Positions 1 through 42,051 of a stretch of 64,000 bases of DNA are shown piece by piece (position 1 is the first letter of the stretch; the number at the start of each line of letters is the position of its first letter). The DNA is from Akkermansia sp. (GTDB taxonomy: Bacteria > Verrucomicrobiota > Verrucomicrobiia > Verrucomicrobiales > Akkermansiaceae). The DNA is taken from contig JAKSOV010000002.1 in the NCBI GenBank assembly GCA_024405415.1, forward strand, positions 1 to 64,000. Reading direction: 5' to 3'. The notes under the pieces were generated by a model, which saw nothing but the letters and a program-made list of their open reading frames with translations, searched no databases and was not told the origin of the DNA. Position numbers and translations under genes: made by a program.

Positions 1-57
1 AAATAGTACATAGTACCTAGTACATAGTAAATCTACAAATCCTCATTTGTCCGCCAA
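1..57. repeat. right end of an intergenic heptamer-array element (copy A)
   Basis: Heptamers GTACATA, GTACCTA, GTACATA follow one another and lead into a short stem-loop, ACAAAT-CCTC-ATTTGT. The same text occurs at the right end of the complete copy at 18483-18698, which has two extra heptamers. The rest of this copy would lie to the left of the window. Confidence 0.8.
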
Positions 58-16470: not shown

Positions 16471-16642
16471 AGATGAGGAGAGAAGGGGAAAGGTTGAAAG
16501 AATCGAACGCCTCTATTGTAAAGAAATTGCGGCGTGTTGCAACATTTTTTTTAGCTTTGCAGGGAAATAATGGGGGAATGACAAAGGACTGATCGCGGGG
16601 ATCAGGAAATGGCCTAAGAGTTTGGCTATGCCCTTTTCAGTC

Positions 16643-16672
16643 TTGCTTTCAAGTAACTTGAAGCATTACAAT
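16643..16672 (+). promoter_or_regulatory. merR promoter with MerR-type operator
   Basis: TTGCTT (16643-16648), an 18-bp spacer, TACAAT (16667-16672). The dyad TTCAAGTAACTTGAA (16648-16662) fills the spacer, the usual MerR-family arrangement. The ATG at 16679 is 6 nt after the -10 box, so the mRNA is probably leaderless. Confidence 0.82.
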
Positions 16673-16678
16673 GACTCC

Positions 16679-17098
16679 ATGAGCAAAACGATTGCCGAAG
16701 TCGCCGCTGAAACAGGATTTTCCACGCCTACGCTGCGCTATTATGAGCAGGAGGGGCTGTTACCTCGCGTGCCGCGCGACGGTGCGGGAAACCGCATCTA
16801 TGGAGAAGCCGAGATGGCGCATCTGAATGTCCTGCGCTGTCTGCGCAGCGCAGGCTTGTCGCTGGCGGAGGTGAAGCACTATTTCAAGCTGGTGGAGCAG
16901 GGCGAAGAAACCCTCCATGCCCGCCGCGAGCTGATGATTCAGGCGCAGGCCCGCATGCAGCAGCAGCTCGATGAAATCAAGGGCTGCCTGCGCTTCCTCG
17001 ACCACAAAATCCGTTACTACGACACCTGCTGCGCCGCCCAAGCCGCCGGCCGCCCCATCCCCGCGTACAGAGCGGAGGTAGGAAACGGCGATGTGTGA
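16679..17098 (+). CDS. MerR-family transcriptional regulator
   Basis: About 139 residues from the ATG at 16679. The N-terminal winged helix is typical: IAEVAAETGFSTPTLRYYEQEGLLPRV. A dimerisation helix follows (about 75-115), then a short C-terminus with a CC pair (YDTCCAAQ) that could sense an electrophile or metal. An almost identical dyad lies in its own promoter and in that of the next gene, so it should control both by the MerR spacer-untwisting mechanism. The resemblance is to MerR regulators of aldehyde or electrophile stress; the true inducer is unknown. Confidence 0.9.
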   Translation: MSKTIAEVAAETGFSTPTLRYYEQEGLLPRVPRDGAGNRIYGEAEMAHLNVLRCLRSAGLSLAEVKHYFKLVEQGEETLHARRELMIQAQARMQQQLDEIKGCLRFLDHKIRYYDTCCAAQAAGRPIPAYRAEVGNGDV

Positions 17099-17110
17099 GA
17101 CAATTTTTTC

Positions 17111-17140
17111 TTGTCCTCAAGTAACTTGAAGGACTACAAT
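17111..17140 (+). promoter_or_regulatory. second MerR-type promoter, upstream of the CMD-cupin gene
   Basis: TTGTCC (17111-17116), an 18-bp spacer holding TCAAGTAACTTGA (17117-17129), then TACAAT (17135-17140). Geometry and dyad match the merR promoter, which implies one regulon. The start codon at 17155 follows the -10 box by 14 nt. Confidence 0.82.
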
Positions 17141-17154
17141 CGAGCTTTCAGATA

Positions 17155-17997
17155 ATGAAAATTCTTCTTCCTTTCCTTTTCCTTATGGCCCCTCATCTGC
17201 TGATGGCGGGCGAAACAAACGATAACACCATGAACAAAATAGTCCAAACAGCGGGCAGAGATGCGCTGGGGGACTTCGCGCCCGACTTTGCCCATTACAA
17301 CGATGACGTCCTCTTCGGCGAGAACTGGAATAACACGGACATCGACCTCAAAACACGCAGTCTGCTCACCGTCACGGCGCTGGTGAGCATGGGCGTCACG
17401 GACAGCTCGCTGACCTACCACCTGCAGAACGCCAAGAACCACGGCGTGAGCAAGGCGGAAATCGCCGCTGCCATCACGCACATTGCCTTCTACGCCGGCT
17501 GGCCGAAAGCATGGGCTACTTTCCGTTTGGCCAAGGAGGTGTGGAAAGACGAGGAAACGGAAGAGACGGGCTTGGCGGCTCATGCCCGCACGCTGATGTT
17601 CCCCGTGGGCGCACCCAACACGGCCTATGCCCAATACTTCACGGGCAAGAGCTACCTCGCCCCCGTCTCTACAGAGCAGGTCAAATTCTTCAATGTGACC
17701 TTCGAGCCCGGCTGCCGCAACAACTGGCATATCCACCACGCGAGCAAGGGCGGCGGTCAGATGCTGGTCGGCATCGGCGGCAAGGGCTATTACCAGGAGT
17801 GGGGCAAGCCTGCGGTGGAAATCAACGAGGGTGATGTTATCCACATCCACGCGGGCGTGAAACACTGGCACGGGGCCGCCCCGGGGTGCTGGTTCTCCCA
17901 CCTTGCCTTTGAGATTGACGGGGACGACTGCTCCAACGAGTGGTTGGAACCCGTGAGCGACGCGGAATATCAGCACGCCACCGAGGGGGAGAGGTAA
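17155..17997 (+). CDS. exported carboxymuconolactone decarboxylase-like and cupin fusion protein
   Basis: 280 residues with a signal peptide (MKILLPFLFLMAPHLLMAG). Domain 1 (about 30-130) is CMD/AhpD-like: DLKTRSLLTVTALVSMG and AAITHIAFYAGWPKAW. No CxxC is present, so an AhpD-type peroxidase is unlikely. Domain 2 (about 165-265) is a cupin with the metal ligands NNWHIHH and VIHIHAGVKHWHG. This pairing is common next to MerR regulators. The exact reaction is unknown. It is controlled by the dyad promoter in front. Confidence 0.9.
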   Translation: MKILLPFLFLMAPHLLMAGETNDNTMNKIVQTAGRDALGDFAPDFAHYNDDVLFGENWNNTDIDLKTRSLLTVTALVSMGVTDSSLTYHLQNAKNHGVSKAEIAAAITHIAFYAGWPKAWATFRLAKEVWKDEETEETGLAAHARTLMFPVGAPNTAYAQYFTGKSYLAPVSTEQVKFFNVTFEPGCRNNWHIHHASKGGGQMLVGIGGKGYYQEWGKPAVEINEGDVIHIHAGVKHWHGAAPGCWFSHLAFEIDGDDCSNEWLEPVSDAEYQHATEGER

Positions 17998-18036
17998 GAC
18001 GATTAAAAGCCGGAGGTCGGACCTGTTTCTTTCCTC

Positions 18037-18464
18037 ATGAAAACGCTTGTCTCAACTGCGCTGCTGCTTGCATGGGGAGCCCTGTCCTCCGCGGCTCAGG
18101 TCGCGGATGTGCACAGCCACATCATTCCGAGTGCGTACACGGATTTTCTGCGGGCTCGATTCCGGAGACGTGGGTGTACAACCGGCTCTCCCGCAGCGAC
18201 ACCAACGCCGCTTTGCAGCAGCCCCTTTATTATTACAGGGACAGCAACGGCGCGGAGGTGGATTTTCTGATTATCCGCGATGGCACCATCCTCCCCCTCG
18301 AGGTGAAGAAAAGCGACAGCCCGAAAGCCGCCGACCTCTCCGCCGTGCGCTCCATCCCGACCGCCCCGACAGACACCGTCCTCCCCGGCATCGTGCTCTG
18401 CACGGCACAGACCGCGTTCCCTCTTTCGTCTGCCGCGCATGCATTCCCCATCTCCGCCCTGTGA
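18037..18464 (+). pseudogene. chimeric gene remnant: amidohydrolase start joined to a DUF4143 ATPase end
   Basis: The first part is a signal peptide and the start of an amidohydrolase (MKTLVSTALLLAWGALSSA, then VADVHSHIIPSAYTDFL). Near 18150 the reading frame shifts and the sequence becomes the C-terminal end of a DUF4143 AAA ATPase: ETWVYNRLSRS, PLYYYRDSNGAEVDFLI, LPLEVKKSDSPKAADL. Neither half is complete. The join looks like a deletion or recombination between two unrelated genes, next to an intergenic repeat element. Confidence 0.8.
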
Positions 18465-18482
18465 AGAGGATGGGGAAATGAA

Positions 18483-18698
18483 CGACAAAGGGGGATTTGT
18501 CGGGATTTACTAGGTACTATGTACTAGGTACTATTTATCAAGTTCGGCGGCTGACGCCGCGAGATAACGAAACTGTTCTGACGCTTGCGTCAGAACAGTT
18601 TTCCTGTCCTTGCGGCGGAGCCGCACTCTATTCAAAAATAGTACATAGTACCTAGTACATAGTACCTAGTACATAGTAAATCTACAAATCCTCATTTA
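18483..18698. repeat. complete heptamer-array element (copy C)
   Basis: The left end is the stem-loop CGACAAA-GGGGG-ATTTGTCG (18483-18502) and an array of three heptamers (TACTAGG, TACTATG, TACTAGG). The core has GCGGC-TGAC-GCCGC (18547-18560), a 15-bp-arm hairpin (18570-18601) and GCGGC-GGA-GCCGC (18612-18624). The right array has five heptamers in inverted orientation (GTACATA, GTACCTA alternating, 18635-18682), then ACAAATCCTCATTT. The element ends at the stop codon of the FAH-family gene. Confidence 0.85.
18570..18603. terminator. terminator-like core hairpin of element copy C
   Basis: AAACTGTTCTGACGC pairs perfectly with GCGTCAGAACAGTTT around a TT loop and is followed by TTCC. It reads as a terminator on both strands, but no intact gene on the plus side needs one. 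Confidence 0.7.
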
Positions 18699-19568
18699 TT
18701 ACTCCGCTTCCACCACCTGCTTCACGCTGCCGATGGCGGGGCAGGAGAACTCGACGATGTCGCCGGGCTTGAGGTAGCAGGGGGGATTCATCCCCATGCC
18801 GACGCCGCCGGGGGTGCCCGTGGAGACCACATCGCCGGGATTGAGCGTCAGGAAGCGGGAGACATAGGCCACCAGCTCCGCCACGGGCATGATTAAGTCC
18901 GCGGTCGAAGCCTTTTGGCGCAGCTCGCCGTTCACGCGCAGCTCCAGCTCGAGGTGGTCGGGGTCGTGAATCTCATCCTTAGTGACGAGCACGGGACCGA
19001 AGGGGGCGAAGGTGTCGTAGCTCTTGCCCTTGGTCCACTGCCCGCCGTGCTCCAGCTGGTAGGAGCGCTCGGAGTAGTCGCACATGAGCGTGTAGCCCGC
19101 GATGGCGCGCTTGGCCTCCGCGGCATCCGCGTTGTGCAGTGTATCACCGATGATGACTGCCAGCTCCACCTCGTAGTCCAGCTTGCTCGCGCCCGAGGGG
19201 TTGAGCACATAGGAGAGGTCGGACGCAATGGCGCTCACGGATTTCAGGAAAAGGGAGGGTTCGGTGGGCTCATCGCCGCTGAACTCCATGGCATGTGCCT
19301 TGTAGCACTTGCCGAGGCAGGCGATGGTGCCGGGCTGCATGTGCAGGGCGGAGGAAAGTACCAGCCCGCCCATGTCCACGGGCACGCCGTCCGCCGCGCC
19401 CTTGGCAATCCACGTCTCAATCTCCTTGCGGAGTTTCTTGCCCTCGGGGCACATGGCGGCCCACAGCTGCTCCTCCTGTGCGGTTACATCGATAAAGCAG
19501 TTGCGCTTGGGTACCCAGAGGCCGATGACGCTCTCGCCGTCCTCGTCCGCGTAATATTGAAGTCTCAT
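18699..19568 (-). CDS. fumarylacetoacetate hydrolase family protein
   Basis: 289 residues. The family core is clear: GDEPTEPSLFLKSVSAI, then KLDYEVELAVIIGDTLHN with the metal-binding acidic residues, YTLMCDYSERSYQ, and near the end GDVVSTGTPGGVGMG. Members include 2-hydroxyhepta-2,4-diene-1,7-dioate isomerases, acylpyruvases and oxaloacetate tautomerases, and the substrate cannot be chosen from sequence. It is preceded on the minus strand by a lipoprotein gene 15 bp upstream. Confidence 0.9.
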   Translation of the reverse strand: MRLQYYADEDGESVIGLWVPKRNCFIDVTAQEEQLWAAMCPEGKKLRKEIETWIAKGAADGVPVDMGGLVLSSALHMQPGTIACLGKCYKAHAMEFSGDEPTEPSLFLKSVSAIASDLSYVLNPSGASKLDYEVELAVIIGDTLHNADAAEAKRAIAGYTLMCDYSERSYQLEHGGQWTKGKSYDTFAPFGPVLVTKDEIHDPDHLELELRVNGELRQKASTADLIMPVAELVAYVSRFLTLNPGDVVSTGTPGGVGMGMNPPCYLKPGDIVEFSCPAIGSVKQVVEAE

Positions 19569-21577: not shown

Positions 21578-21601
21578 GCGTCGGGGAGGGGAGAAGAGGG
21601 G

Positions 21602-21832
21602 AAATGGGGATTTGTAAGTACAATGTACAAAGTACGAAGTACAAATCATTGAATAGAGTGCGGCTTCCGTCTTCGCCTACGGCTACGCCGAGACAAGCCG
21701 CCGCAAGGATTGGTAACTCGTTCTGACGCAAGCGTCAGAACGAGTTTTTATCCCGCGGCGTCAGCCGCCTAATTTTTTGATTTGTACATTGTACATTGTA
21801 CTTTGTACATCTCGACAAATCCCCATTTGTCG
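21602..21832. repeat. complete heptamer-array element (copy D)
   Basis: The left array has four 7-bp units (AAGTACA, ATGTACA, AAGTACG, AAGTACA). The core holds a large GCGGCTT...AAGCCGC hairpin (21660-21701), a 15-bp-arm hairpin (21715-21746) with TTT after it, and GCGGC-GTCA-GCCGC (21755-21768). The right array is in inverted orientation (TTGTACA, TTGTACA, TTGTACT, TTGTACA), then the stem-loop CGACAAATCCCCATTTGTCG (21813-21832). It has the plan of copy C with different sequence in almost every part. Confidence 0.85.
21715..21749. terminator. terminator-like core hairpin of element copy D
   Basis: AACTCGTTCTGACGC and GCGTCAGAACGAGTT form a perfect 15-bp stem with an AA loop and a T-run. Compared with copy C the stem bases differ on both sides, so pairing is kept. 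Confidence 0.7.
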
Positions 21833-41035: not shown

Positions 41036-42051
41036 ATAAGACACATATTCTTGCCCTTGCCGCTACGGCGCTTACCTTCGTTTCCTGCGAAGAGGCTACG
41101 GACGTTGCTGACGGTCGTGCCCGCATCCAACGCTTTACTCCGCCTACTCCTGTCGCCGCTCCGGCACCCAAGCCTGCCCCTGTGGTTGATCAGCCCAAGC
41201 CCGAACCGGCCCAGGCTCCCGTCATCGAGAAGCCTGAACCCACGCCCGCTCCTGCGCCGGAGGTGAAGCTCCCCGAGCCGCCCCCTGCCCCCGCTCCCGA
41301 GGTGAAGAAGCCCGAAACCGCGCCTCTCATCTCTCAGAAACAGCCCGCGCTGCCGAAGCCGGAGACCAAGAAGCCCGAGCCCAAACCTGTGGTGGAACAG
41401 AAGCAGCCCGAACTGCCGAAACCTGAGGTGAAGGCCGAGGCCCCTGCCCCCAAGCCCGAGGTCAAGAAACCCGAGCCCAAACCCGTCGTGGCACAGAAGC
41501 AGCCCGAACTGCCGAAACCTGAGGTGAAAGCCGAGGCCCCTGCCCCCAAGCCTGAGGTCAAGAAGCCCGTGCCCAAACCTGTGGTGGAACAGAAGCAGCC
41601 CGAACTGCCGAAACCTGAGGTGAAGGCCGAGGCTCCCGCCCCCAAGCCTGAGGTCAAGAAACCCGAGCCCAAACCTGTGGTGGAACAGAAGCAGCCCGAG
41701 CTACCCAAGCCCGAAGTGAAGGCTGAGGTCCCCGCCCCCAAGCCTGAGGTCAAGAAGCCCGAGCCCAAGCCTGTGGTAGAACAGAAGCAGCCTGCGCTTT
41801 CCAAGCCTGAGGTGAAGGCTGTGGCTCCCGCCCCCAAGCCTGAGGTCAAGAAGCCCGAGCCCAAGCCCGTGGTGGCGCAGAAACAGCCTGCGAATCCGGC
41901 TCCGCAGCGCCGCTCTTTCTTCAAGCGGCAGCAGCCTGCCTATCTTCCCACGGAAGGCGCACCCTCAGATGACGTCCCCGCCCATCTGTTGGCCCCGGAT
42001 TCGGATTCCATTGTGATGCCCGGGCAACGCCGCGGCGCTCGCCGTCGTTAA
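41032..42051 (+). CDS. lipoprotein with tandem Pro/Lys/Glu repeats
   Basis: 339 residues from the ATG at 41032, with a lipoprotein signal (MNKTHILALAATALTFVSC). The body (about 60-290) consists of roughly five tandem 32-residue repeats built from PKPEVKK, PEPKPVVEQKQPE and LPKPEVKAEAPA, encoded by nearly identical 96-bp DNA repeats. Such rod-like PEPK segments resemble the periplasm-spanning part of TonB. The C-terminal tail is basic. The repeat DNA is likely to vary in copy number between strains. Confidence 0.85.
   Translation: MNKTHILALAATALTFVSCEEATDVADGRARIQRFTPPTPVAAPAPKPAPVVDQPKPEPAQAPVIEKPEPTPAPAPEVKLPEPPPAPAPEVKKPETAPLISQKQPALPKPETKKPEPKPVVEQKQPELPKPEVKAEAPAPKPEVKKPEPKPVVAQKQPELPKPEVKAEAPAPKPEVKKPVPKPVVEQKQPELPKPEVKAEAPAPKPEVKKPEPKPVVEQKQPELPKPEVKAEVPAPKPEVKKPEPKPVVEQKQPALSKPEVKAVAPAPKPEVKKPEPKPVVAQKQPANPAPQRRSFFKRQQPAYLPTEGAPSDDVPAHLLAPDSDSIVMPGQRRGARRR
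41340..41890 (+). repeat. 96-bp tandem coding repeats in the lipoprotein gene
   Basis: Units begin at CAGAAGCAGCCCGA-like text and repeat about every 96 bp (32 codons). Later units differ by a few silent or conservative changes, such as GAACTGCCG against GAGCTACCC. Confidence 0.8.

Follow-up and report, generated by a model that had tools for sequence, protein, structure and literature searches.

The element at 18483-18698 of the window, as we call the whole 64,000-nt stretch of DNA analysed, is real, far beyond chance expectation, and belongs to a family of about 130 copies in the genome of this uncultured, Akkermansia-type gut bacterium. We assign a probability of roughly two-thirds to its being a non-autonomous mobile repeat of the REPIN/MITE type, moved in trans, with heptamer arrays as its subterminal repeats. 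An earlier note on this DNA had suggested a non-autonomous mobile or structural repeat, and that suggestion is supported by the many copies, the young and identical cores, the absence at the window locus in near relatives and the species-specific expansion.

The element is ~115-250 bp long, with a heptamer array following a 20-bp palindrome at either end. The features of the copy at 18483-18698 and of its surroundings are listed in Table 1. The left-end consensus, based on 46 left ends, is CGACAAATGRGRATTTGTCG. The inverted arrays of three and five heptamers described at the ends of this copy are present as 3 and 5 GTAC units with period 7. An outer stem-loop had been assigned to each array; the left one (18483-18502) is as described, and the right one is present in degenerate form in the window copy. 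With up to three mismatches allowed, CGACAAATN4ATTTGTCG matches four times in the window versus 0.16 expected. The copy at 18483-18698 had been labelled the best; it proves to be a diverged member of the family. The ORF that precedes it, judged by the part of the DUF4143 domain that it retains, is probably a gene remnant. Elsewhere in the window, at 41356-41888, there are 5.6 copies of a 96-bp tandem repeat, with coding-type units rich in proline and lysine.

Table 1. Features of the copy at 18483-18698, other copies in the window and neighbouring genes.
Feature	Position	Strand	Remarks
Left terminal palindrome, CGACAAAGGGGGATTTGTCG	18483..18502	+	Pattern match; left-end consensus
Left heptamer array, GTACTAN, 3 GTAC units	18504..18537	+	Period 7
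Local hairpin 1, GCGGC-TGAC-GCCGC	18547..18560	+	Joins rod in full fold
Central 15-bp hairpin, terminator-like	18570..18601	+	Compensatory changes
Local hairpin 3, GCGGC-GGA-GCCGC	18612..18624	+	
Right heptamer array, 5 GTAC units, inverted relative to left array	18636..18681	-	Period 7
Right terminal palindrome, degenerate here (ACAAATCCTCATTTAT)	18682..18698	-	Adjoins stop codon of FAH-family gene
Outer arm of terminal palindrome, CGACAAATG			
Second copy, TTGTACA-type heptamer arrays (21614-21648 and 21773-21813)	21598..21832	-	Between tRNA-Ser and DAHP synthase gene
Third copy, right array and right end	1..52	-	Truncated by contig start
Neighbour gene, FAA hydrolase family	18699..19568	-	Pfam PF01557, E 8e-65
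Neighbour ORF, last third of DUF4143 domain only	17940..18464	+	Pfam PF13635, profile positions 106-160 of 160

Across 122 contigs totalling 1.98 Mb, the left end was identified 131 times and the right end 126 times, and the reversed-pattern control gave 0. The outer palindrome pattern occurs at 214 sites with up to two mismatches, and at 0 when reversed. The search for further copies therefore found ~130 and favours the family idea. At ~0.2 kb each, ~130 copies are estimated to occupy ~1.4% of the genome, and they are a major cause of its fragmented assembly: the repeat broke the assembly, as no fewer than 72 of the 122 contigs start inside a copy. Fragmentation, with contigs ending in the repeat, is what an artefact of assembly or binning might also generate, but for more than 30 copies the assembly continues across the repeat into unique sequence on either side, and homologous arrays are present in independently assembled relatives, making such an artefact extremely improbable.

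The 31 copies that could be parsed have cores of three size classes, 35, about 100 and 132 bp. An identical 100-bp core, with zero differences, is present at twelve loci other than the window copy, and unchanged 132-bp and 35-bp cores are present at four and three loci, respectively. Because cores recur without change at so many loci, the spread is recent. The AT-rich tandem arrays have a period of 7, with practically none at the other periods tested, and those that flank the identical 100-bp cores range from 1 to 5 GTAC units; slippage presumably expands and contracts them. There are also internal-deletion forms that retain both ends (L067, L089, L099) and, rarely, solo CGACAAAT palindromes without arrays (G000 C26:3041, C30:21258 and C63:12434; L091, L092, L095) that are singlets or else remnants left by lost elements.

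Comparison with relatives documents empty as well as occupied sites. At the window locus in a near congener, G079, the FAH-family gene is followed by ~90 bp and then by an epimerase gene; the element is absent, as are about 2.2 kb of other genes, and in G080 the FAH-family gene similarly ends without an element. Relative to G079 contig 36, in which the flanking genes are adjacent, the ~2.2 kb (window 16471-18698) is present here only and comprises a MerR-type regulator, a carboxymuconolactone decarboxylase-cupin gene, the DUF4143 remnant and the element. A clean contrast is provided by a sister-lineage array located between two operon genes in G001, G003 and G074, as most of the other congeners read have only a few bases separating these genes. 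The comparison of occupied and empty sites proposed in the earlier note favours the family idea at the window locus and for the sister-lineage array; a clean two-flank empty site was obtained for 0 of 6 composite copies. Joined-flank queries for these six, directed at seven relatives, gave no match across the joint, because the flanks match different places or one flank alone matches.

In the 690 kb covered in G001, G077 and G079, the palindromes are missing, bar one site with 3 mismatches. Old resident palindromes were considered as targets for insertion and rejected, given this result and the rarity of solo palindromes here. Heptamer arrays are abundant in G001, G003, G044 and G074, without CGACAAAT palindromes where checked. 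None were found in the 168 kb of G079 and the 124 kb of G077 covered, and there are a few in G077 outside the 124 kb. In two cases (L011/L037 and L061/L113), another species has an array at the corresponding gene junction, and some copies must therefore be old; the shared-site copies L061 and L011 have diverged cores.

The most interesting feature is the variation of the outer arms of copies that have identical cores. The end consensus is RNNCGACAAATGRG. In 19 copies, the outer palindrome halves vary by 12% (left) and 22% (right) and the inner halves by 1.3-1.5%; these copies were picked for identical cores, so that zero core variation is by construction, whereas the inner-outer difference does not follow from that choice. 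Identity is level throughout the interior of the element and drops just at the outermost 11-12 bases. Either every insertion makes or selects its outer arms anew, or gene conversion homogenises the interiors. According to the latter explanation, the copies are old, fixed intergenic repeats with interiors kept identical by conversion and with outer arms that drift at the edge of homology. The shape of the identity profile and the two sites common to other species fit this, but conversion should blend the three invariant core size classes, which instead coexist, and the diverged cores of L061 and L011, the lack of palindromes in the relatives (one 3-mismatch site apart) and the empty window locus in near relatives all argue against it; we consider it rather unlikely. 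In the mobile repeat that we favour, the unfaithful copying of the outermost arms is itself a counter-argument, as it is not predicted by simple cut-and-paste or copying. It is conceivable, albeit unlikely, that the outer halves are not copied from the donor, and are instead made or chosen at insertion, with the invariant inner half either supporting fold-back synthesis or pairing with the target. If so, the transposition route would match neither DDE nor RAYT transposition, and the heptamer arrays would be part of the recognised ends.

Inverted ends, together with the internal-deletion forms that keep them, would also be consistent with a MITE moved by a DDE transposase acting on terminal inverted repeats. 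Such movement is, however, improbable, as target-site duplication is not evident (the longest flanking direct repeat averages 3.03 bp, versus 3.15 bp with shuffled partners) and no autonomous relative with the same ends was seen; among the end positions listed, there is no obvious kilobase-sized copy. Phage records have no match to the element, plasmid records have a single 37-bp array match, and the end-type pattern was not found in viral contigs. A profile search of 31 genomes for Y1_Tnp/RAYT (PF01797) established that this family is absent from the present 95%-complete assembly (G000). RAYT was rejected as the mover on this basis, and the RAYT loci of relatives adjoin other repeats, without heptamer arrays. 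Tandem series of short hairpins at L033 (G010) and L052 (G022), in which the linkers stay constant and the stems change, constitute another REP-like family, and the series at L052 adjoins a RAYT gene. That the PF01797 search tied no transposase to the element counts against the mobile reading, as do the failure to recover a clean two-flank empty site for the composite and the two junctions shared with other species. Tentatively, a protein supplied in trans might recognise the folded ends and copy or move the element via a single-stranded intermediate.

Such folding is predicted to be extensive, as the two inverted ends would allow the whole element, as single-stranded DNA or RNA, to form one long rod. 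The fold calculated for the window copy is a single rod (z = -14.6 as RNA and -14.3 as DNA), in which, at minimum energy, the outer and middle parts pair. The three central hairpins reported previously hold as local hairpins, and in the minimum-energy fold are in part alternatives to the rod. Nine different versions of the central stem were compared; both partners have changed in 5 of its 15 pairs and 99.3% of cells are paired, and for this reason the central hairpin matters as a structure. The element had also been credited with a terminator core, which is plausible as regards the hairpin but not the U-tract, which is not good. In the window copy, the core hairpin (18570-18601) has a poor T-tract and was not flagged in a terminator scan, and an Rfam covariance-model search gave no match at 18483-18698. 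Transcription termination by the central hairpin is possible.

The positions of 32 complete copies were surveyed relative to genes predicted with an ORF and codon-usage script, rather than taken from annotation. None (0/32) is inside a gene. The neighbouring gene ends are stop codons in 41 of 61 cases (median distance 11 bp) and starts in 20 (median 72 bp), and for some copies the stop codon of the preceding gene is provided by the element itself. The bias towards stop codons fits insertions being tolerated after genes, although a role at 3'-ends would match too. Insertions would persist chiefly just past stop codons because there they would do least harm. Alternatively, the copies could be host regulatory modules, bidirectional terminators or 3'-UTR stabilisers, that are kept by selection and are not selfish repeats. 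Their location after stop codons and the pairing constraint on the central hairpin are in line with such a function, and in sister species the arrays lie between a stop codon and locus-specific terminators. However, the second copy in the window sits between two transcription units that each have their own terminator-like hairpin, the core hairpin of the first copy was, as noted, passed over by the terminator scan, short forms that lack the central hairpin also recur, and the near relative G079 has zero arrays in 168 kb. Taken with these observations, a regulatory module seems quite improbable.

Arrays of heptamers are not confined to this family, and the heptanucleotide repeats of cyanobacteria are similar seven-base intergenic tandem arrays. 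Exact four-unit TAGTACN arrays are present at single or few loci in many phyla, which include Bacteroidota, Gammaproteobacteria and Patescibacteria, among the matches listed. Litoribacter and Photobacterium (within L284-L340) have several TAGTACN arrays beside terminator-like hairpins. In G001, a prophage-like region (L203; contig 12, 56001-76000) that encodes RecT-like, exonuclease VIII, helicase-loader and tail proteins contains six heptamer arrays, mostly positioned right before start codons. A literature text search for the TAGTACC array yielded a single paper, on Staphylococcus prophage regulation, in which one of three strings occurs once. Three-frame stops were rejected as a general function of the arrays, as TAGTACN provides these in one direction and TTGTACA is stop-free in both directions.

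The earlier view that no known family fits needs revision with respect to the ground plan, which is that of a REPIN or MITE, and to the arrays, as heptamer direct repeats are known; it holds for the combination, with no RAYT or target-site duplication and with variable outer arms. REPINs are REP doublets that form hairpins (PMC3116915). As in a REPIN (PMC3116915), an inverted palindrome pair, as found in 32 complete copies, and a spacer constitute one long hairpin; the spacer folds with compensatory changes, and the copies are extragenic and numerous, with rarer singlets. Unlike a REPIN, the element occurs in a genome in which RAYT (PF01797) was not found, has ends, with consensus as given above, that lack the GTAG/CGTC tag at the palindrome foot, and has heptamer arrays inside the palindromes, three core sizes and a variable outer palindrome half. 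Bacterial MITEs are similarly short and non-coding, with terminal inverted repeats, internal-deletion forms and many near-identical copies, but DDE-type MITEs differ in having target-site duplications, and no parent insertion sequence was recognised for the element. Membership of the REPINs therefore fails on RAYT and the tag, and membership of the DDE-type MITEs on the duplication. The type of repeat is already known, and the combination seems to be undescribed in the literature found. TAACTGA arrays are intergenic heptamer direct repeats for which no spreading mechanism was evident (PMC4679880). The arrays described here resemble them in being seven-base intergenic tandem arrays near start or stop codons, with 7-nt length steps, a distribution over scattered phyla and contigs that end in repeats (PMC4679880), and differ in that the units are TAGTACN, TTGTACA and others, arranged as inverted pairs in a defined repeated element. 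Here, heptamer repeats make up the subterminal region of an element that is defined, young and present in high copy number and, because near relatives are without it, the spread of heptamer repeats can be tested by strain comparison.
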